43,691 bases of DNA from Betaproteobacteria bacterium (GTDB lineage Bacteria > Pseudomonadota > Gammaproteobacteria > Burkholderiales > SHXO01), in the NCBI GenBank assembly GCA_009693245.1, contig SHXO01000014.1:1-43691 (forward strand), read 5' to 3'. The stretch's first letter is position 1; the number at the start of each line of letters is the position of its first letter. The notes beneath the pieces are model-generated. The model did not search any database. It was not told the origin of the DNA and was given only the letters and a program-made list of their open reading frames with translations. Shown here piece by piece: positions 5,580-32,239 of the stretch. Both the position numbers and the translations under genes were made by a program.

Positions 5580-6932
5580 ATGATATTAGCAGTCGTGTTG
5601 GTGTTATTGATCCTTGGCTCCGTCCTGTTTCACTTCCTGAGCCCGTGGTATTTCACGCCGAATGCTTCCAATTGGGGCACGATCGATGACACGGTAAGCA
5701 TCACGTTTTGGGTCACGGGAGCCGTCTTTGTCGCCATCAATTTGTTCATGGCCTATGCCGTGATGAGATACCGAAACCGCAAGGGAAATAAGGCGCACTA
5801 CGAACCCGAAAACAAAAAGCTGGAGGTTTGGCTTACCGTGGTAACCGCCGTGGGGGTCGCTGCGATGCTGGCCCCCGGCCTGTTTGTGTGGGCGAAATTC
5901 GTCGAGGTGCCGCAAGACGCGGCGGTGTTCGAGGCGGTGGGCAAGCAGTGGCACTGGAGCTATCGCTTTCCCGGGACCGACGGCGTGATGGGCACCGTGA
6001 ATGCTCGGTACGTCAGCGATAAGAACCCGTTTGGAATGAATCCTGACGATCCCAAGGGCCGCGACGATGTCTTGATCTCAAGCCCGGAAGTGCATCTGCC
6101 CCTCGGCAAGCCGGTCAAGGCGCTGCTCCGCTCTTTGGATGTGTTGCACAACTTCGCGGTAGCACAGTTCCGGGTCAAGATGGATCTGGTGCCCGGACTG
6201 GTCACCTACATCTGGTTCACCCCCACCCGAGCCGGGACATACGACGTTCTGTGCGAAGAATTATGCGGCATCGCCCATTTCACCATGCGTGGCAAGGTCG
6301 TGGTGGAAGAAAATCGCGAGTTTCAGGCGTGGTTAAGTAACTATCCGACATTCGCGCAATCCTTGGCCCAGGTGCCGGGCGATGCTGCTGCAGGGCAGCC
6401 ACTGTTCGCAGTGTGTGCTGCCTGTCACGGCATGCAAGGGGAGGGTAACGTTGCGTTGAATGCGCCGAAGTTGAGCGGGCAAGGAGACTGGTATCTGAAA
6501 CGGCAATTGAAGTATTTCAAGAACGGTGCCCGGGGTACACACGACAGGGATGTTTATGGTAAGCAGATGGCGCCGATGGCTGCGACGCTGGTGGACGCGG
6601 CTGCCATAGATAACGTGGTCGCTTATATCCAGACGTTGCCCGATAAACCTTCCCCCCCCACGTTGAACGAGAATGCCGCCATGGGCCAAAAGATCTATGC
6701 GACCTGCGCCGCCTGTCATGGTGCCCAGGGGCGGGGTGTACAGTCAATGAATGCCCCCCGGCTTGCCGGTATGAGTGATTGGTATTTGGTCACTCAGTTG
6801 AAGAACTACAAGCAGCGTATACGGGGCGCCCATCCAAACGATATGTACGGTACGCAGATGGTATCCATGGCAACGATTCTGGCCGATGACCAGGCAACCA
6901 AAGACCTAGTTACCTACATCAATACCTTTTGA
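5580..6932 (+). CDS. coxB: Cytochrome oxidase subunit II with two cytochrome c domains
   Basis: This second, distinct subunit II (450 residues) heads a full oxidase operon. It has an N-terminal helix (about 1-20) and two further helices (about 40-63 and 82-104). The CuA domain has His190, Cys225, Cys229, His233 and Met236. Two tandem cytochrome c domains follow, with CAACH at 279-283 and 376-380, each with a YGxQM motif as likely axial Met site (YGKQM and YGTQM). Most caa3-type subunits II carry one haem c; two is less usual. ATG 5580 is chosen because GGAGG precedes it by 8 bases; a longer frame to 5481 has a cysteine/arginine-rich leader unlike the family. The operon order (II, I, III, III, IV) resembles the coxMNOP type of alternative oxidase. 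Confidence 0.93.
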   Translation: MILAVVLVLLILGSVLFHFLSPWYFTPNASNWGTIDDTVSITFWVTGAVFVAINLFMAYAVMRYRNRKGNKAHYEPENKKLEVWLTVVTAVGVAAMLAPGLFVWAKFVEVPQDAAVFEAVGKQWHWSYRFPGTDGVMGTVNARYVSDKNPFGMNPDDPKGRDDVLISSPEVHLPLGKPVKALLRSLDVLHNFAVAQFRVKMDLVPGLVTYIWFTPTRAGTYDVLCEELCGIAHFTMRGKVVVEENREFQAWLSNYPTFAQSLAQVPGDAAAGQPLFAVCAACHGMQGEGNVALNAPKLSGQGDWYLKRQLKYFKNGARGTHDRDVYGKQMAPMAATLVDAAAIDNVVAYIQTLPDKPSPPTLNENAAMGQKIYATCAACHGAQGRGVQSMNAPRLAGMSDWYLVTQLKNYKQRIRGAHPNDMYGTQMVSMATILADDQATKDLVTYINTF

Positions 6933-12259: not shown

Positions 12260-13165
12260 TTAATATTCCAGGCGCCAAAGATGGCGGCTAACGGAGAGCC
12301 AAGCGCCCAGCAAGCCAAGTAGGCTCGCGGCCACCAGCAAGCTCCCGGCGTCCCAAACGCTTAGACCCTTGAGCTGAAACTGCCCGCTGTAAAACACCGC
12401 CAGATCGCTGAGATGGTAGTTAAGCCACGCCGCGATGAGTAATACCAATAAGCAGGCGACGACCGCCCCCGCAAGTCCTTGCACTGCTCCCGCATAGAGG
12501 AAGGGCCGGAGAATGTATCCGTGGGTAGCGCCGATGAGCCGGGTGACCTCGATTTCCTCTTGCCGGGTTAGAATTTGCAGGCGAATCGTATTGAAGGTGA
12601 CGGCGATCACCGCTCCGCTCAATAGCAGCGCCAGCACGGCCACCAGCGCCTTGCCCACGCGCAACACAGCATAGAGCTTCCTCGCCCATTCGGCGTCGGC
12701 CTGAACGTGCTGGACCTTTGGCCATGCGCTCACCGCCAGCCGTATGCGTTCCAGCGTCTTTGGATTGTGGTCCTTGGCGGTGATCACGAAGGCGTCGGGC
12801 AGGGGGTTTTCGCCCAACTCTCCCAGCACATCCCCCAAATTGCTGCCCGCCTTGAGTTCCTCCAAGGCCTTATCCTTGGGAACAAAGTGAAAGGAGCCGG
12901 CATCGCCTAGCTTCTCCAACGCCTGGTTGGTCTTCGCAACATCACTCTGGGCCGCGTCCATGGCCATGAAAACGCTGAGTTGGGGTTCGCGTGACATTTG
13001 CCGCGACGTGCCTTGAAGGTTATCCAGGATCACATAGAGCACGGCGGGAAGGCTCAGAGCGATGCCGATCACCGACGCATTGAGAATCGCGACGACAGGA
13101 CGAGTGCGGAAGCGGGATAGCACTTCGCGAAAAGACGTGAGTTGCTGGTTGGCCCACGGCTTCAA
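12260..13165 (-). CDS. ftsX: Cell division ABC transporter permease FtsX
   Basis: FtsX forms with FtsE an inner-membrane complex that controls peptidoglycan hydrolases at the division site. The 301-residue protein has a cytoplasmic N-terminus, a first helix (about 25-48), a periplasmic domain (about 50-170) and three C-terminal helices (about 172-195, 222-247 and 270-290). VTRLIGATHGYILRPFLYAG is the conserved FtsX coupling region. Its ATG overlaps the ftsE stop by 4 bases, so the pair is translationally coupled. Length is near the family norm. Nothing unusual is seen. Confidence 0.95.
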   Translation of the reverse strand: MKPWANQQLTSFREVLSRFRTRPVVAILNASVIGIALSLPAVLYVILDNLQGTSRQMSREPQLSVFMAMDAAQSDVAKTNQALEKLGDAGSFHFVPKDKALEELKAGSNLGDVLGELGENPLPDAFVITAKDHNPKTLERIRLAVSAWPKVQHVQADAEWARKLYAVLRVGKALVAVLALLLSGAVIAVTFNTIRLQILTRQEEIEVTRLIGATHGYILRPFLYAGAVQGLAGAVVACLLVLLIAAWLNYHLSDLAVFYSGQFQLKGLSVWDAGSLLVAASLLGLLGAWLSVSRHLWRLEY

Positions 13166-16202: not shown

Positions 16203-17487
16203 ATGCGACTGCTCTTGATTTTTCTCGCATGGGCGTGGGCTGGTCTCGCAACGGCCGCCTTGCCCATTCAACATTGGAAGACGAGCACCGGCGCACGCGT
16301 GTACTTCGTCGAGAGCCACGAACTTCCCATGCTCGACGTGAGTGCCGAGTTTCCCGCGGGTTCCAGCCAGGACACGGAGAAGAAATCCGGGTTGGCGGCC
16401 ATGACCTTGCGCATGATGCGCCTGGGTGTTCAAGGTTTGGATGAGAACGCGATTTCCGAACAACTCGCGGACGTGGGCGCCGCGCTCGGAATGAGCTTCG
16501 ACGTGGACCGGGCCGGCTATTCGCTACGGACCCTAAGCAAGAAGGAATTTCGCGATGCGGCGCTCGCCATCATGACCAAGGTGCTGAGCGAACCCACCTT
16601 CCCGGAGGCAGCGCTCGCACGCGAGGTGCAGCACTCCATATCGGAAATGAAGGAGTCCGAGATCAAGCCTGAAACCGTTGCCGCGCGCGCCTTCTCCAAG
16701 ATGGTGTTCGCCGGCCACCCCTACCAACTGCGAGCGGGCGGCGAAGCCGGTACGCTTTCAACGCTGACGCGAGCGGACTTGGCGGAGTTCCATGCGAAAC
16801 ATTTCAACACGTCTGGTGCCGTGGTCGCGTTGATGGGCGACGTCACGCGCACGGAAGCCGCTCTCATCGCCGAACAACTGACGGCCGGATTGGCGCGCGG
16901 AAACAAGCCGGCGCCCATTCCCCCGGTGAACATGATCCTCAGGGGCGAAGAGCGGTTCATCAGTCACCCATCCGCCCAAGCTCACATCCTAACCGGCGGG
17001 CCGGGCGTGAAACGAGGAGACCCCGATTATTTTCCGCTGCTGGTGGGCAATTACATTTTTGGGGGCGGGGGTTTCAACTCGCGCTTGACCCTGGAGGTGC
17101 GCGAAAAGCGCGGCCTGACTTACAGTGTCTATAGTGCCTTTTCGCCATACCGCGAGGCGGGGGCCTTTCAGATTGGACTGCAAACGCGGCGTGACCAGGC
17201 CAAGCAAGCCTTGCAAGTGGTGCGCGATACCCTGAAGACCTTCGTGACCGATGGGCCCACGGCCGCCGAGCTGGAAGGGGCAAAGCAGAATTTGATTGGC
17301 GGATTTCCCTTGCGTATCGATACCAGCCGAAAAATTCTGGAGTACCTCGCGGTGATCGGTTTCTACGATTTGCCCTTGGATTATCTGGAGCTATTCCCAG
17401 AGCGGATCGCGCAAGTGACGCTCCCGAAAATCAAGGAGGTCTTCGCCAGAAGGGTGGATCCCTCGCGTTTGGCGACCGTGGTCGTCG

Positions 17488-27098: not shown

Positions 27099-27173
27099 TG
27101 GGGAGTCGCCAAGTGGTAAGGCAGCGGATTTTGATTCCGCCATTCGTAGGTTCGATCCCTACCTCCCCAGCCA
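27099..27173 (+). tRNA. tRNA-Gln (anticodon TTG)
   Basis: A full cloverleaf can be drawn: acceptor TGGGGAG pairs with CTCCCCA, the anticodon stem GCGGA/TCCGC closes loop TTTTGAT with anticodon TTG, and the T arm is GTAGG-TTCGATC-CCTAC. The CCA end is encoded (27171-27173). It lies 7 bases after ispE, its usual place in this class. Confidence 0.96.
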
Positions 27174-27182
27174 ATCAACGGC

Positions 27183-27239
27183 AGGATTTAGGAGCTGGGG
27201 TGCATTTCCCCAGATCCTAGATCCTAGCTCCTAGCTCCT
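27183..27239. repeat. Intergenic palindrome of 7-nt units (element 1, TAGGATC type)
   Basis: An 18-base left arm (27183-27200) pairs at 16 of 18 positions with 27208-27225 around a 7-base loop. The right side continues as heptamers: GATCCTA twice, then GCTCCTA and GCTCCT. It fills the tRNA-Gln to prs spacer. The hairpin may also end transcription, but no T run follows. Confidence 0.8.
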
Positions 27240-27252
27240 CGAATTCGATCCC

Positions 27253-28203
27253 ATGGCCTACGATAGTTTGATGGTATTCACCGGCAACGCCAATCCGCGC
27301 TTGGCGGAAGACGTGTGCCGCCATCTCAATATTCATCTTGGGCGCGCCACGGTCGGTAAGTTCAGCGACGGCGAGGTCATGGTGGAACTCCTCGAGAATG
27401 TTCGGGGCAAGGACGTTTTCGTGTTGCAGTCCACCTGCATGCCCACCAACGACAACCTCATGGAAGTCGTGCTCATGGCCGACGCGCTCAAGCGCTCCTC
27501 GGCGGGGCGTATCACCGCGGCGGTTCCCTATTTCGGTTATTCGCGCCAGGACCGGCGGCCGCGCTCGGCGCGGGTGGCCATCAGCGCCAAGGTGGTGGCG
27601 AACATGTTTCAAGCCGTGGGTGTGGACCGCTTGCTGACGGTGGACCTGCACGCGGACCAAATCCAGGGTTTCTTCGATATTCCCGTGGACAATATCTACG
27701 CCGCGCCTATCCTGCTGGGAGATATCTGGAAGCACGGGCACCAGAATTTGGTGGTGGTGTCGCCGGACGTGGGTGGCGTGGTGCGAGCCCGCGCCCTGGC
27801 CAAGAGGCTGGAAGCCGATCTCGCCATCATCGACAAACGGCGCCCACGCCCCAATGTCGCCACGGTGATGAATATCATCGGCGACGTGGCGGGACGCACT
27901 TGCATCATCATGGACGACATGGTCGATACGGCGAACACCCTATGCGAGGGTGCCTCGGCCTTGAAGGAGAAAGGCGCTGAGAAGGTGATGGCGTACTGCA
28001 CACACGCGATACTTTCCGGCAACGCGGTGCAACGAATCCGCGGCTCGGCGCTGGACGAAGTGGTGGTGACGGATACCATTCCCCTGCGCGAGGAGGCGAG
28101 GCAATGCGGGCGTATCCGCCAATTGAATATCGGAGAGTTGCTCGCCGAGACCATGTTGCGTATCAGCAACGAGGATTCGGTGAGTTCGCTCTTCATGGAG
28201 TAG
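27253..28203 (+). CDS. prs: Ribose-phosphate pyrophosphokinase
   Basis: Prs makes PRPP from ribose-5-phosphate and ATP for nucleotide, His and Trp synthesis. The 316-residue protein has the class I features: [17 protein letters not shown] at the N-terminus, FSDGEVMVE, the ATP loop [15 protein letters not shown], and the PRPP-binding loop [18 protein letters not shown]. Length is the family norm. The ribosome site is weak (the heptamer repeat ends 14 bases before the ATG). It sits in the conserved order ispE-tRNA-prs-rplY-pth-ychF. Confidence 0.97.
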
Positions 28204-28210
28204 CCAAGGG

Positions 28211-28284
28211 CGTGAGACGTGAGACGTGAAGTGCGATGGGAGCAGCAGTTCCTCTCACGCTTCACGTCTCAAGCTTCACGCTTC
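28211..28284. repeat. Intergenic palindrome of 7-nt units (element 2, GTGAGAC type)
   Basis: Left arm heptamers are GTGAGAC, GTGAGAC, GTGAAGT (from 28212). The right arm (28252-28284) carries the inverse series, with CTCTCAC, GCTTCAC, GTCTCAA, GCTTCAC. The arms can fold into one long imperfect hairpin. It lies between prs and rplY. Confidence 0.8.
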
Positions 28285-28335
28285 GTCGTCAACCCGTTAT
28301 CTGGTCGCGGATAACGTCACTAGGAGTAAGAAGTC

Positions 28336-29049
28336 ATGTCAATCGAAGTTAATGCAAGTCCGCGTTCGGCACAGGGCAGAGGTGCGAGCCGCCGCCTGCG
28401 CCACGGCGGCAAGGTACCCGGAATACTCTATGGTGGCGGGCAGGATGCGGCAAGCATCGAAGTGGATCACAAGGACTTGCTGGCCAAGCTCAAGTTGGAG
28501 GCTTTTCACGCGTCCATCTTGAATCTCAACATGGGCAGCGAAAAAATGCAGGTGTTGCTGCGCGATTACCAGATGCATCCTTTCCGGATGGAAGTGGTGC
28601 ACGTGGATTTTCAGCGCGTTGCGAAGGACCGCAAGATCCACATGCGCGTACCCCTGCACTTCGTGAACGAGGAGATCGCGCCCGGCTTCAAGACGGGTGG
28701 TGGCGTTGTCCAGCACGTCATGTCGCAACTTGACGTGATCTGCCTGCCCGCGGATCTGCCCGAGTACATCGAGGTCGATCTCTCCACCTTGCAGATCGGC
28801 CACTCCATCCACTTGGCGCAGTTGAAGCTGCCTAAGGGTGTGGAATCCACCCAGTTGCGTTCGGGAGACGATGCGGTCGTCGCGACCATTCCAGTGCCAA
28901 GGGCAGAAGCCGTGGTGGTGGAAGAAGTGGCTCCGGCTGCCGCCGCCGCTGCCGCTCCGGCTGCCGCCGCCGCGCCCGCCGCGGGTTCGGCGAAAGCACC
29001 CGCCGCCGCGAAGGCACCTGCCGCCGCGAAGGGCGGAGACAAGAAGTAA
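28336..29049 (+). CDS. rplY: 50S ribosomal protein L25/general stress protein Ctc
   Basis: L25 binds 5S rRNA in the large subunit. The 237-residue protein has the N-terminal L25 domain (about 1-95; RGKGASRR-like start, then GKVPGILYGGG and LLRDYQMHPFRMEVVHVDFQ) and the C-terminal TL5/CTC domain (about 100-190). A low-complexity Ala/Pro/Lys tail (about 195-237) ends it, with KAPAAA repeats. The tail is common in Betaproteobacteria. TAGGAG precedes the ATG. A strong terminator follows. Confidence 0.96.
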   Translation: MSIEVNASPRSAQGRGASRRLRHGGKVPGILYGGGQDAASIEVDHKDLLAKLKLEAFHASILNLNMGSEKMQVLLRDYQMHPFRMEVVHVDFQRVAKDRKIHMRVPLHFVNEEIAPGFKTGGGVVQHVMSQLDVICLPADLPEYIEVDLSTLQIGHSIHLAQLKLPKGVESTQLRSGDDAVVATIPVPRAEAVVVEEVAPAAAAAAAPAAAAAPAAGSAKAPAAAKAPAAAKGGDKK

Positions 29050-29068
29050 ATTTATCCTTTGGAACCAG

Positions 29069-29104
29069 GGCCCGCCTGGTGAAGACCAGGCGGGCCTTTT
29101 TGTT
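29069..29104 (+). terminator. Rho-independent terminator after rplY
   Basis: A perfect 12-base stem (GGCCCGCCTGGT pairing with ACCAGGCGGGCC) closes a GAAG loop and is followed by TTTTTGTTT. It is the clearest intrinsic terminator in the window and lies 20 bases after the rplY stop. It separates prs-rplY from pth-ychF. Confidence 0.95.
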
Positions 29105-29128
29105 TGAACTTTTCAAGAGATCACTAGG

Positions 29129-29692
29129 ATGCGGCTCGTGGTAGGGTTGGGCAATCCGGGACGGCAATACGAGCGCACCCGCCACAACGCCGGGTTTTGG
29201 TGGGTGGAACGTCTCGCCCAGATGGCCAAGGTGGAACTGCGTCCGGAGCGCAAGTTCAGCGGCTACGTGGGGCGCATCCCATCGCCCTGCGAGTGTTGGC
29301 TCCTGCTCCCCCAAACGTATATGAATGCCAGCGGGCAGGCGGTTGAAGCGCTTGCCAATTTCTACAAGATTGCCCCGGAGGAAATCCTGGTGGTGCATGA
29401 CGAACTCGATTTGGTTCCAGGTGCCGCCAAGCTCAAGCACGGCGGCGGGGCAGCGGGACATAATGGATTGAAAGACATAGCGGCGAAATTGGGACAGAGC
29501 TTCTGGCGCCTGCGCTTAGGCATCGGGCATCCCGGTCAAAGGGATGTGGTGGTGGATTACGTGCTGCACCCCCCTAGCCAAGAAGACGCGGAGCTGATCT
29601 CCCAGGCCGTGGACCGCAGCCTGAAAGTTTGGCCCTTTATCCACGTGGGTGAGATGGAGAAGGCGATGCATGCATTGCACACCAAGGGGTGA
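29129..29692 (+). CDS. pth: Peptidyl-tRNA hydrolase
   Basis: Pth frees tRNA from dropped peptidyl-tRNAs. The 187-residue protein has the motif GLGNPGRQYERTRHNAGF with Asn9 and the catalytic His19, PQTYMNASGQAV, and VVHDELDLVPG with the conserved Asp. GGGAAGHNGLKDI completes the active site region. Its stop codon is the first part of a heptamer repeat element. ACTAGG precedes the ATG closely. Confidence 0.96.
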   Translation: MRLVVGLGNPGRQYERTRHNAGFWWVERLAQMAKVELRPERKFSGYVGRIPSPCECWLLLPQTYMNASGQAVEALANFYKIAPEEILVVHDELDLVPGAAKLKHGGGAAGHNGLKDIAAKLGQSFWRLRLGIGHPGQRDVVVDYVLHPPSQEDAELISQAVDRSLKVWPFIHVGEMEKAMHALHTKG

Positions 29693-29751
29693 GGCGTGAG
29701 GCGTGAAGGGTGGGGGCCTAACGCTTCACCTCTCACGCTTCACCCTTCACG
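29689..29751. repeat. Intergenic palindrome of 7-nt units (element 3, GTGAGGC type) overlapping the pth stop
   Basis: Left arm: GTGAGGC, GTGAGGC, GTGAAGG. Right arm (29722-29751): the inverse series GCTTCACC, TCTCACG, CTTCACC, CTTCACG. The pth TGA stop (29690-29692) lies inside the first unit. Like elements 1 and 2 it can form one long hairpin. Confidence 0.8.
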
Positions 29752-29760
29752 GAACTCACT

Positions 29761-30849
29761 ATGAAATGCGGAATCGTCGGCCTGCCTAACGTAGGCAAAT
29801 CCACCTTGTTCAACGCGCTTACCAAGGCAGGTATCGCGGCGGAGAACTACCCCTTTTGCACCATCGAACCCAACGTCGGGATTGTGGAGGTGCCCGATGC
29901 CAGGCTGGCGGCTCTCGCGGCCATCGCCAAGCCGCGGAAGGTCGTCCCTGCCATCGTGGAGTTCGTCGACATTGCGGGCCTGGTCGCCGGGGCCTCCAAA
30001 GGCGAGGGCCTGGGAAATCAATTTCTCGCCAATATCCGGGAGACCGATGCGATCGCCCACGTGGTGCGATGTTTCGAGGATGCCAATGTCGTCCATGTCG
30101 CAGGCAAGGTCAATCCCGTCTCGGACATCGAAACCACCAACACCGAACTGGCGCTCGCGGACCTGGCTACCGTGGAAAAGCAATTACTGAAGTACGGCAA
30201 GGCCGCCAAAGCCGGCGGAGATAAGGAAGCTCAGCGCCTGGTCGCCGTACTGGAAAAGGTGCTGGTGGCCTTGAACGCGGGGCAGCCCGCTCATTCCCTG
30301 GATTTGTATCCCGAAGAGCGGCACGTGCTCAAGCCCATGTTCCTCCTTACCATGAAGCCCACCATGTACGTGGCCAATGTCGCCGAGGGCGGGTTCACCA
30401 ATAACCCCATGCTCCGCCAAGTGGAGGAGTACGCCGCCAAGGAAAAGGCCCCGGTCGTGGCCATCAGTGCGTCGCTGGAAGCGCAGATCGCCGATCTGAG
30501 CGACGAGGACAAGCAAGTGTTTCTCTCCGATGCGGGTCTTCAAGAGCCTGGATTGAATCGCCTCGTGCGCGCCGCTTATCAATTGCTAGGCCTTCAGACC
30601 TACTTCACGGCCGGGCCCAAGGAAGTGCGCGCCTGGACCATCCACACGGGCGATACAGCCCCGAAAGCGGCCGCCGTGATTCACACGGACTTCGAGAAGG
30701 GCTTTATCCGCGCCGAAGTGATCGCTTACAACGACTATGTGAACCTGAAGGGCGAACAAGGCGCCAAGGAGGCAGGAAAGATGCGCCTCGAAGGCAAGGA
30801 ATATGTCGTGCGCGACGGCGACGTCATGCATTTCCGCTTCAACGTCTAA
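29761..30849 (+). CDS. ychF: Ribosome-binding ATPase YchF
   Basis: YchF (OLA1 family) is a ribosome-associated P-loop protein that prefers ATP over GTP. The 362-residue protein has G1 GLPNVGKST (near residue 6-14), the [10 protein letters not shown] switch, [16 protein letters not shown] and the NVAE motif (YVANVAEGG) in place of NKxD, which fits ATP use. A C-terminal TGS-like domain ([13 protein letters not shown] to VMHFRFNV) ends it. Length is the family norm. The integrase insertion follows 169 bases later. Confidence 0.97.
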
Positions 30850-30975
30850 ATGCGTTTTCATGTCATGAGCTATCCTAGAGGATCCGGTGTATTAAAAAAT
30901 ATCAAGTATTAACAAATATATAGTAGTTCATTGGCATTCGCTTATTTCCGTTGCAAGCCGAAAGTAATGCGGGTA

Positions 30976-31038
30976 TCGTTGAGGGTACTGAATCAGGATA
31001 CCAACGGAGATACCCGCAATGGCCCTCACTGATACCCT
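30976..31038 (+). promoter_or_regulatory. Repeated GATACC-type sites before and over the integrase start
   Basis: GCGGGTATC (about 30969-30977) and GATACCCGC (about 31010-31018) are perfect inverse copies flanking the spacer. Between and after them lie GGGTACTGA, GGATACCAACGG and, inside the gene, GATACCCTC. Five related hexamers in about 70 bases suggest an autoregulatory operator or integrase arm-binding sites. Coordinates are approximate by a few bases. Confidence 0.5.
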
Positions 31039-32239
31039 CATTCGCAATGCCAAGCCCATAGCGAAACCCGTAAAGCTGGCCGACGGCAGCGGGCTGCACC
31101 TAGAGCTGCGACCGACCGGCAGCAAGCTATGGCGCTACCGCTTCCGGCTGCACGGCAAGGAAAACGTTTTCGCATTGGGCGAATATCCAGCGCTCTCACT
31201 TGCCGATGCTCGGCAGGCTCGGAATGATGCCAAGAGCCTAGTTAAGCAGGGCATCAATCCGGCAGATCAACGCAAGCTAGACCGTCTCCAGGCAACTCAC
31301 GCTTCGCGGGAAACCTTTGAAGCGGTGGCGAAGGAATGGGCCGAAAACCGAGCCGTTGAATCCAAATGGTCGGACTCCTACCGGCAAGGCGTGAACCGGG
31401 TACTTGAGGGTGATTTAATCCCCGCACTCGGGAGCCTGCCCATGCGTCAAATCAAAGCGGCACATCTGCTGGCGGCGCTTAGGGGTATCGAAAAGCGGGG
31501 CGCTCGCACGGTTGCGGCTAAGGCTCGCTTCCTTTCCTCCGAGATTTGGCGCTATGCGGTGGCGACCCTGCGCGCCGATAGCGATCTGGCGGCGTCATTA
31601 CGCGGTGCAGTGCGGATGCCAGAGCATGAGCATCATCCTTCCCTCAAGCGCGACGAAATACCCGCATTCCTTGCGGCGCTAAACAACTATTCTGGCCGGA
31701 AAGAAACAGCGACTGCACTTAAGTTGCTGCTCCTGCTTTTTCCGCGTCCAGGCGAATTGCTCGGGGCCGCTTGGGCTGAATTTGATTTAGATGCGGCGCT
31801 TTGGCGGATACCGGCGGAGCGTATGAAAATGGGCGAAGAGCATTTAATCCCGCTGCCGACCCAGGCTGTCGATTTGTTGCGAGGGCTCAAGTTTCTGACT
31901 GGCGACTATCCTTACCTATTCCCGCACCGCGATCACCGATTAAAGCCAATGACCGATGCCGCTTTGCGGCAAGCCCTCCGTGTCTTGGGCTACTCGCGCA
32001 AGTTGACCCCGCACGGATTCCGGGGGACGGCAAGCACCGCGTTAAACGAATTAGGTTACCGGGGCGACTGGATAGAAAAACAATTAGCGCATGAGGAAAG
32101 CAAGCGGAGCCGCGCTTCGTATAACCATGCCATATATCTCGAAGATCGGCGGAATATGCTTCAAGGGTGGGCTGACCTGATAGACGAAATGTCCGATCCG
32201 AATAGCAAAGTGACGCCGATCAAGCGGGCGGCGGCGTGA
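31019..32239 (+). CDS. Tyrosine recombinase/integrase, P4 type
   Basis: The 406-residue protein is an intact phage/island integrase. It has the N-terminal DUF4102-type arm domain (LADGSGLHLELRPTGSKLWR, LGEYPALSLADARQAR), a core-binding domain (about 100-190) and the catalytic domain with Arg243 (FPRPGELLG), His332-Arg335 (HGFR), His358 (LAHEE) and nucleophile Tyr368 (SYNHAIY). P4-type integrases usually insert at tRNA genes, but here no tRNA is adjacent. It lies between ychF and a truncated yjgR-like gene. Only a small lipoprotein gene accompanies it, so this is a minimal or decayed island. Confidence 0.93.
   Translation: MALTDTLIRNAKPIAKPVKLADGSGLHLELRPTGSKLWRYRFRLHGKENVFALGEYPALSLADARQARNDAKSLVKQGINPADQRKLDRLQATHASRETFEAVAKEWAENRAVESKWSDSYRQGVNRVLEGDLIPALGSLPMRQIKAAHLLAALRGIEKRGARTVAAKARFLSSEIWRYAVATLRADSDLAASLRGAVRMPEHEHHPSLKRDEIPAFLAALNNYSGRKETATALKLLLLLFPRPGELLGAAWAEFDLDAALWRIPAERMKMGEEHLIPLPTQAVDLLRGLKFLTGDYPYLFPHRDHRLKPMTDAALRQALRVLGYSRKLTPHGFRGTASTALNELGYRGDWIEKQLAHEESKRSRASYNHAIYLEDRRNMLQGWADLIDEMSDPNSKVTPIKRAAA

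Follow-up and report, generated by a model that had tools for sequence, protein, structure and literature searches.

Three intergenic spacers of a 43,691-nt stretch of DNA (contig SHXO01000014.1 of the Betaproteobacteria bacterium assembly GCA_009693245.1; hereafter the window) carry hairpins made of inverted tandem heptamers. We consider it likely, with a probability of roughly three in four, that these hairpins are non-autonomous relatives, without an open reading frame (ORF), of a small mobile element in which a gene of the PF05635 family lies between two repeat arrays. The array-gene-array unit inserts near gene ends. The window elements themselves cannot be autonomous copies of it, because their loops measure 9-25 nt and the PF05635 matches of the genome are not on the window's contig. 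We rate the unit as new, with the proviso that annotators, or papers outside the open-licence literature, may have noted it; the accessible portions of the open-licence literature contained nothing joining heptamer repeats with the heptamers of ribosomal intervening sequences or describing such a unit. Below, L numbers denote loci, G numbers genomes and C numbers contigs; G000 is the window's genome and the window is C14.

In each of the three spacers (tRNA-Gln/prs, prs/rplY and pth/ychF) a purine-rich heptamer array, a loop and a convergent pyrimidine-rich array follow one another. Element 1, in the tRNA-Gln/prs spacer (27183-27239), has a purine arm of TAGGAGC-type units at 27183-27199, a 9-nt loop, and a pyrimidine arm at 27209-27239 whose units are of TAGGATC/TAGGAGC type on the other strand. 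Element 2, in prs/rplY (28210-28281), carries GTGAGAC and GTGAAGT units in its purine arm (28210-28241) and, read on the other strand, GTGAAGC, GTGAGAG and related units in its pyrimidine arm (28250-28281). Element 3, in pth/ychF (29685-29751), has GTGAGGC and GTGAAGG units in the purine arm (29685-29711) and GTGAAGC, GTGAGAG and GTGAAGG units on the other strand of the pyrimidine arm (29721-29751); its inverted arms are 29687-29711 and 29721-29745, and the array continues to 29751. The stop codon of pth (TGA, 29690-29692, + strand) lies inside the first GTGAGGC unit of this element. A first-pass annotation had placed inverted heptamers around a loop in these spacers, and both the positions and the period stood, period 7 being returned independently by Tandem Repeats Finder at all three elements. 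The palindromic heptamer plan that it took to be shared was also borne out, but the palindromes are not perfect: the arms are mosaics of related heptamers. The fold check that it suggested gave very stable predicted RNA structures (z = -4.2, -6.6 and -6.9). It had further assigned a normal terminator to the rplY/pth spacer, and the sole terminator-like site between 27000 and 29900 is indeed an ordinary intrinsic-terminator-like hairpin with a T-run after rplY (29067-29098, + strand), which lies outside the element family. No T-run terminator was found at the three elements.

Elements of this plan are abundant in the window's genome. A first scan of 436 kb returned 18 period-7 arrays, compared with none in a Markov control, and an exact inverted partner was found for six arrays of period 7, five of period 14 and one of period 8, with none at any other period from 4 to 21. 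In 829 kb, a strong inverted partner was present for 25 of 65 period-7 arrays versus 0 of 24 in an order-2 Markov control, as well as for 9 of 24 period-8 and 5 of 84 period-9 arrays; the short-simple-repeat filter was mechanical, and some GC-rich coding arrays get through. Overall, 1.43 Mb contained 40 elements with periods of 7-9 and several unrelated units, so that the hairpins do have further copies: 31 came from 1.22 Mb with periods 7, 8 and 9 merged, and nine from a further 0.20 Mb picked mostly for matches to a GTGA pattern. The unit classes were GTGA type (15 elements), GGGAGG (11), CACAGAG (7), ACGCAAAG (3), TAGGA (2), AGGACAG (1) and ACACGGAA (1). Periods 8 and 9 stem from the CACAGAG, ACGCAAAG and ACACGGAA units, with the plan unchanged. 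A common 'CCT+N4' unit was our first guess and was dropped after other genomes were inspected.

The elements of period 8-9 (L011 6522, L021 3578, L138 4855, L159 12406, L171 7217, L141 2871, L142 14172; L142 6143, L152 4853, L164 9989; L147 10338) showed partly conserved outer flanks, for example ACC/GGT. Arms with different units were seen in the convergent pairs L154 9827-9925, L250 5358-5454 and L159 about 6000-6100.

Polarity was uniform: the purine arm came first in 40 of the 40 elements. When neighbouring period-7 arrays no more than 150 nt apart were counted with complementarity ignored, 22 pairs were purine-pyrimidine, two pyrimidine-purine and one purine-purine, and both pyrimidine-purine pairs lay where one element of the rRNA operon adjoins the next. 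The same count at loci of other genomes gave 12 purine-pyrimidine pairs, no pyrimidine-purine or purine-purine pair, and one pyrimidine-pyrimidine pair. Thirty-nine elements lay in spacers and one inside a called ORF; the gene calls came from our own hexamer model, which gave 1226 genes in the initial 1.22 Mb. None of the 39 occupied a divergent spacer, compared with 167 of 871 background spacers of at least 20 nt (Fisher 0.0005). Between co-directional genes, the array started -8 to +9 nt from the stop codon in 22 of 26 period-7 elements. Elements also sit between trpB and trpA, between carA and carB and between genes of the nuo operon, all named from their translations and not from a database. 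Heptamer arrays seemingly in or at the edge of protein genes were noted at L148 3224-3254 (within an aceE-like frame, as read from the sequence), L136 2545-2596 (within a uvrA-like frame, likewise), L178 13836-13867 and L007 9238-9271, the last being the right end of a PF05635 copy.

The gene-carrying form is present in the same genome. The 23S match in its rRNA operon spans 3339 nt against a 2925-position model, and the insert (L019 10303-10765, contig 7) has AGGACAG arrays at both ends and encodes a PF05635 protein (E 1.2e-28). A tblastn search with this protein over the loci collected to that point added three different genes, all of them flanked by convergent arrays. L167 has GGGAGG units, L007 has GTGA units and one in-frame stop, and the gene in the pth/ychF spacer of G039 (L185/L047) has GTTGAGA units. 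The three PF05635 matches of the whole window genome lie on C1, C7 and C17 and none on C14, and they are far outnumbered by the 40 gene-less convergent arrays in the 1.43 Mb examined. These copies carry GTGA, GGGAGG and AGGACAG units, and all three classes also occur in the genome's own ORF-less hairpins. In a control of 1098 testable genes from this genome, convergent arrays flanked 3 of 3 PF05635 genes at a distance of up to 200 nt on each side, versus 3 of 1095 others (Fisher 9e-8). In the L019 operon, a tRNA is flanked by a further AGGACAG hairpin (12316-12397) and by another array (12483-12500).

The association of gene and arrays extends to other genomes. When 20 hand-picked genomes were searched with the profile, 10 of them yielded 28 PF05635 matches. 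Of these 28 rows, 21 had an array detected on either side, and the 21 represent 20 elements since L301 and L302 are pieces of one gene; a single left array in coding sequence at L298 was excluded from the counts. All 21 had the purine array on the left and the pyrimidine array on the right, with periods of 7, 8 or 9 and about 20 units. Within the panel, PF05635 was found in 10 of 12 genomes with arrays (nine over the cut-off) versus none of eight without arrays in the part examined, several of these eight being judged only on a single 20-kb stretch or on the GTGA pattern. In 200 genomes of the phylum, a unit-free, four-copy GTGA pattern occurred in 21 and PF05635 in 37 (34 over the cut-off). 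Genomes with the pattern had PF05635 in 16 of 21 cases, compared with 21 of 179 without it (Fisher 9e-10; over the cut-off 15 versus 19, Fisher 4e-9), p-values that overstate independence because several genomes share a genus. The pattern and profile searches were taken to cover the same 200-genome sample, since both gave the same handles. The pattern, which detects one unit class only, matched the window's genome 35 times and its backward-read control 0 times. In G019, a sub-threshold PF05635 match on contig 28 (L284, 15846-16136), with no arrays detected, directly precedes a reverse transcriptase (16483-17121) and is probably the Avd gene of a diversity-generating retroelement (DGR).

Insertion was seen directly on plasmids. 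The L167 protein matched 23 plasmid records, mostly of Nostocales, and no phage records. Sixteen of the 23 were examined for arrays, and 12 had a purine array on the left and a pyrimidine array on the right; at L318 the right array only was detected. Where annotated, the plasmid copies lay between protein genes and not in rRNA. In the plasmids of Nostoc C052 (L311) and Nostoc ATCC 53789 (L313), three genes A-B-C are near-identical around the junctions: L311 has an element with AGGAGTC arrays between A and B, L313 has one with AGGGGAA arrays between B and C, and the reciprocal site is empty in each. The insertion points are the stop codon of A and the overlapping stop and start of B and C. At a third site, the element is present in Trichormus and Scytonema but absent from Tolypothrix PCC 7601, N. 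carneum and an Aulosira plasmid. The flanks of the Trichormus site are 96-99% identical to those of the three records without the element, and GTAAT stands on either side of the insert. In Nostoc C052 pC052_E, what remains at this site is the array on the left and a 38-codon piece of the gene (blastx 1e-19). At two further plasmid sites relatives lack the element, with diverged junctions. The empty, filled and truncated sites therefore show that full elements insert and that truncated ones arise. The earlier proposal of a mobile or actively generated family is supported, with insertion directly seen for the full-length cyanobacterial plasmid relatives and not for the window elements themselves. 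PF05635-type genes were also noted inside operons of clustered regularly interspaced short palindromic repeats (CRISPR) on plasmids of Pseudanabaena (L307), Anabaena sp. 90 (L309) and Picosynechococcus (L314), where they are flanked by cas6 and cas4 or by cas10 and a cmr3-family gene.

The spacers of the window were compared with those of relatives. A search for pth covered 60 genomes including the window's own; 58 matched and 30 loci were seen (our own and 29 others), with ychF not following pth in all. Heptamer hairpins occupied the pth/ychF spacer in L032 and L049, an array with a weak partner in L036 and a degenerate one in L041, and the spacer of L047 (G039) held a full PF05635 copy. In G039, another repeat containing GGAACCTCTGATTAAGTC, seen twice, adjoins that copy (L185, about 5835-5960). 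The same-genus genomes in which the pth locus was found (L026 and L027) had short pth/ychF spacers without an element, and element-free counterparts of the window sites are known only from distant relatives. The sites are thus neither identical nor slowly evolving, the spacers of relatives holding no element, another unit or a decayed element.

Within one genus (G026, G060, G061 and G062) all four species had the pth/ychF element, in three unit types that differed in both arms: GTGATTA/G in G026, GTGAACA/C in G061, and GTGAGGG/A in G062 and G060. The pth genes of G026, G060 and G061 are 88-91% identical, and those of G062 and these three 71-72%; given the unit shared by G062 and G060, the unit therefore does not follow descent. 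In the tRNA-Gln/prs spacer of this genus, G062 and G060 had CTAGAGA arrays and G026 and G061 had arrays that looked decayed by eye. The prs/rplY spacer held no element in any of the four, and elements with other units were present there in G050 and G063. Near bioD (a gene read from sequence), a gap-free alignment of G061 and G026 set four TCACCAG units against four TCACCCC units. Whole arrays thus change their unit while keeping length and register, site, period and polarity.

These observations can be assembled into a mechanism. A full copy consists of a left purine-rich array of 7-9-nt units, a PF05635 gene of about 110-130 codons and a right pyrimidine-rich array, usually of the same unit. 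The encoded protein is predicted to be a PF05635 four-helix bundle (S23, or 23S rRNA intervening-sequence protein), with a sequence weakly related to the Avd protein of DGRs. Its matched families include no transposase, nuclease or other catalytic domain, its match to the Avd model NF033474 is weak (E 1.7e-5, below the cut-off of that model), and the related proteins of solved structure are 2gsc and 2rld, the nearest being XCC0516 (2gsc), by its name presumably a Xanthomonas campestris protein. Because of these matches, binding and recruitment would be expected rather than catalysis: judged from sequence, the protein may bind the arrays or their hairpins and recruit host enzymes. Arrays in place would turn over by slippage and conversion, and elements may persist mostly just behind stop codons, because they would do least harm there. 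The window hairpins may descend from array-ended PF05635 elements or be mobilised by them, because they share plan and polarity and, in part, unit classes, and because a full copy occupies one of the same spacers elsewhere. The agreement in unit class is partial: the GTGA type has a PF05635 copy in the window's genome and the TAGGA type has none.

Several observations weigh against this account. The manner in which the element moves, and the role of the PF05635 protein in transposition, are things that we infer. No credible PF05635 remnant was found in the loops of the genome's own ORF-less hairpins when these were tested as deletion derivatives, and loop homology among 31 elements was limited to one related pair (L171 14289-14449 and 15378-15540, about 1 kb apart, 72% identity over 102 nt); common descent with full copies is therefore not shown for the window hairpins. 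Transposition of whole ORF-less hairpins was rejected, as loops other than this pair are unrelated. The window's genome has no PF05635 copy with CACAGAG, ACGCAAAG, TAGGA or ACACGGAA units. In the panel, 7 of the 28 PF05635 matches had no detected array on one or both sides; by eye, L290, L292, L295 and L299 have one array and a degenerate partner, and L298 and L283 look degenerate. Elements were present and PF05635 absent in G050 and G063 and, for the GTGA class, in 5 of the 21 phylum genomes; conversely, 21 PF05635 genomes had no GTGA array, GTGA being the only unit looked for. The backward-read control matched in 12 of the 200 genomes, and seven of these 12 also have GTGA arrays; the matches may reflect arrays of other units or chance. 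Polarity is violated on plasmids by L316 (pyrimidine arrays on both sides) and by L306 and L307 (AGCTAAA-type units), and Gemmatirosa L310 has an extra pyrimidine array between its two arrays. Target duplication was a clear 5 bp at one site only, GTAAT, with TAATG/TTATG (4/5) at another and none legible at the remaining sites.

The main competing explanation is that local tandem repeats arise de novo in each spacer by slippage and fold-back template switching, the PF05635 gene being a passenger that favours such sites. We consider this improbable. Concerted unit change at unchanged length and register is typical of slippage and conversion, loops are unrelated, and mismatches are symmetric, the sense strand having 21 G-U against 23 A-C. 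However, the same small set of unit classes comes back at locus after locus of one genome (GTGA, GGGAGG and CACAGAG types, with the counts given above), polarity is strong, PF05635 is associated with the arrays, and clean filled and empty sites take in the gene. These features argue against local origin.

The order of heptamer variants was compared between arms. In the window's genome, 85 of 1000 heptamer permutations reached the observed mirror-order score (25 elements, 16 informative), and in other genomes 287 of 1000 did (15 elements, 10 informative, with most double entries of one element under two locus names removed). The negative result applies to the set and not to each element, because L146 and L260 show variants in register. 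Similarity within and between arms was left out of the argument, since it had itself served to select the pairs. Together with the lack of a G-U excess in the test for selection on RNA pairing, there was no sign of selection on the hairpin or palindrome as such. Independent variant order in the two arms would suit a telomerase-like process that extends the two 3' ends at a break by heptamers and then joins them. This scheme also predicts the observed 5'-purine to pyrimidine-3' polarity, as in head-to-head telomere fusions, and would accommodate mixed-unit pairs such as those at L154 and L250; moreover, RNA-templated synthesis of tandem-repeat DNA is described for the bacterial reverse transcriptase system DRT10 in the available text of PMC12632851. 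It nevertheless appears very unlikely. No match to PF00078 was found in the window's genome, G060, G062, G063, G119, G185 or G246, a search in which DRT10 itself was not included and other carriers did match, and the PF05635 gene between the arrays is left unexplained.

Slightly less plausible again is a spread of sequences like REP (repetitive extragenic palindromic) elements or BIMEs (bacterial interspersed mosaic elements) by a Y1 transposase of the RAYT (REP-associated tyrosine transposase) kind. REP elements are intergenic palindromes near gene ends, built on a conserved palindrome with a 5' tetranucleotide; our elements, with none in divergent spacers, resemble them in ecology, and the window's genome has one Y1_Tnp gene. 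However, the 12-kb stretch containing that gene has no convergent array pair by it, G029 and G039 have arrays and no Y1_Tnp match, and our palindromes have no common fixed sequence. Functional RNA hairpins under selection, acting as terminators or mRNA stabilisers, would explain the very stable predicted folds but are the least credible origin, given the lack of a terminator-like T-run at the three window elements, the positions between neighbouring operon genes (trpB/trpA, carA/carB, nuo), the equal mismatch classes and the wholesale unit change between congeners.

The PF05635 element resembles several known systems in part. The closest is the 23S rRNA intervening sequence (IVS) with its ORF for S23, also called intervening-sequence protein (IVP; PF05635 / TIGR02436), which has the same protein family and inverted ends; the L019 copy of the window's genome is such an IVS, with AGGACAG arrays at its ends. 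In Coxiella the IVS has tandem GACAGAT heptamers whose number varies between strains, and the accessible part of that report cites previous suggestions that the IVS is a mobile element or what is left of a transposon, and does not describe the array plan (PMC4990558). Unlike the IVS, plasmid copies lie between protein genes, as the window elements lie between protein or tRNA genes and not inside a 23S rRNA gene; many units occur in the arrays; and ORF-less copies are abundant in the window's genome. Heptameric simple sequence repeats of Xanthomonas (GGGAATC) and Nostoc (GGGGAYT) are mainly intergenic, and two Xanthomonas genomes have 186 and 183 GGGAATC arrays and 70 and 75 pairs in convergent, inverted arrangement (Rehm et al. 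2015; PMC4692102). The portion of that paper at hand describes one unit type per genome, read as G-quadruplex repeats at conserved locations, and links no gene to them (PMC4692102). The window elements share with them tandem heptamers, intergenic position and convergent pairs. The TAACTGA heptamers of Beggiatoaceae and cyanobacteria are, in the available text, intergenic, shared by distant phyla, and mostly direct repeats of one unit for which translational regulation was proposed (PMC4679880).

The likeness to other small elements is more limited. REP/BIME sequences with RAYT are likewise small extragenic palindromes near gene ends; in our elements, units change wholesale from one to another, with no common palindrome and no RAYT linkage found. 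Miniature inverted-repeat transposable elements (MITEs), too, are short and non-autonomous, with ends in inverted orientation and longer relatives that carry coding sequence. The present elements differ from MITEs and from classical transposons in having ends of many units without a fixed terminal inverted repeat, and a long copy without a recognised transposase. The weak match of the IVS protein to Avd recalls DGRs, from which the system differs in that the window's genome has no PF00078 match.

A wider generalisation could go either way at present. It holds that scattered bacterial arrays of 7-9-nt units (those of cyanobacteria, named STRR, the Xanthomonas GGGAATC repeats, proteobacterial GTGANNN repeats and IVS stems) are the ends or remains of one class of mobile element, whose only gene encodes an Avd-like four-helix protein without a known catalytic domain and whose ends are recognised by period and purine/pyrimidine polarity, not by sequence. 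Full copies outside the cyanobacterial plasmids and the window's genome and its relatives were single cases, in Azospirillum and, less cleanly, in Gemmatirosa. If the generalisation is true, the unit could drift and undergo concerted replacement without loss of mobility, and DNA would be marked for movement in a new manner, through the period and strand composition of the ends. Bacterial heptamer repeats have been reported for decades with no accepted origin, and the 23S IVS and S23 have been called selfish with no known way of moving; a PF05635 gene between arrays would give both one common explanation. The elements impinge on stop codons, spacers within operons, an rRNA gene and, it would appear, coding sequences in places, and therefore shape their host genomes. 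Cyanobacterial plasmids, in which sites occur in filled, empty and truncated form, are ready material for study.

Gene order in this part of the window is lolB, ispE, tRNA-Gln, prs, rplY, pth, ychF. All neighbours of the elements are on the + strand: tRNA-Gln (TTG; 27099-27173) upstream of element 1, prs (27253-28203) between elements 1 and 2, rplY (bL25/Ctc; 28336-29049) downstream of element 2, and pth (29129-29692) and ychF (29761-30849) on either side of element 3. Just downstream of ychF lies a phage-type tyrosine integrase (31019-32239; PF13356, PF22022, PF00589), preceded by AT-rich tandem repeats at 30889-30925.

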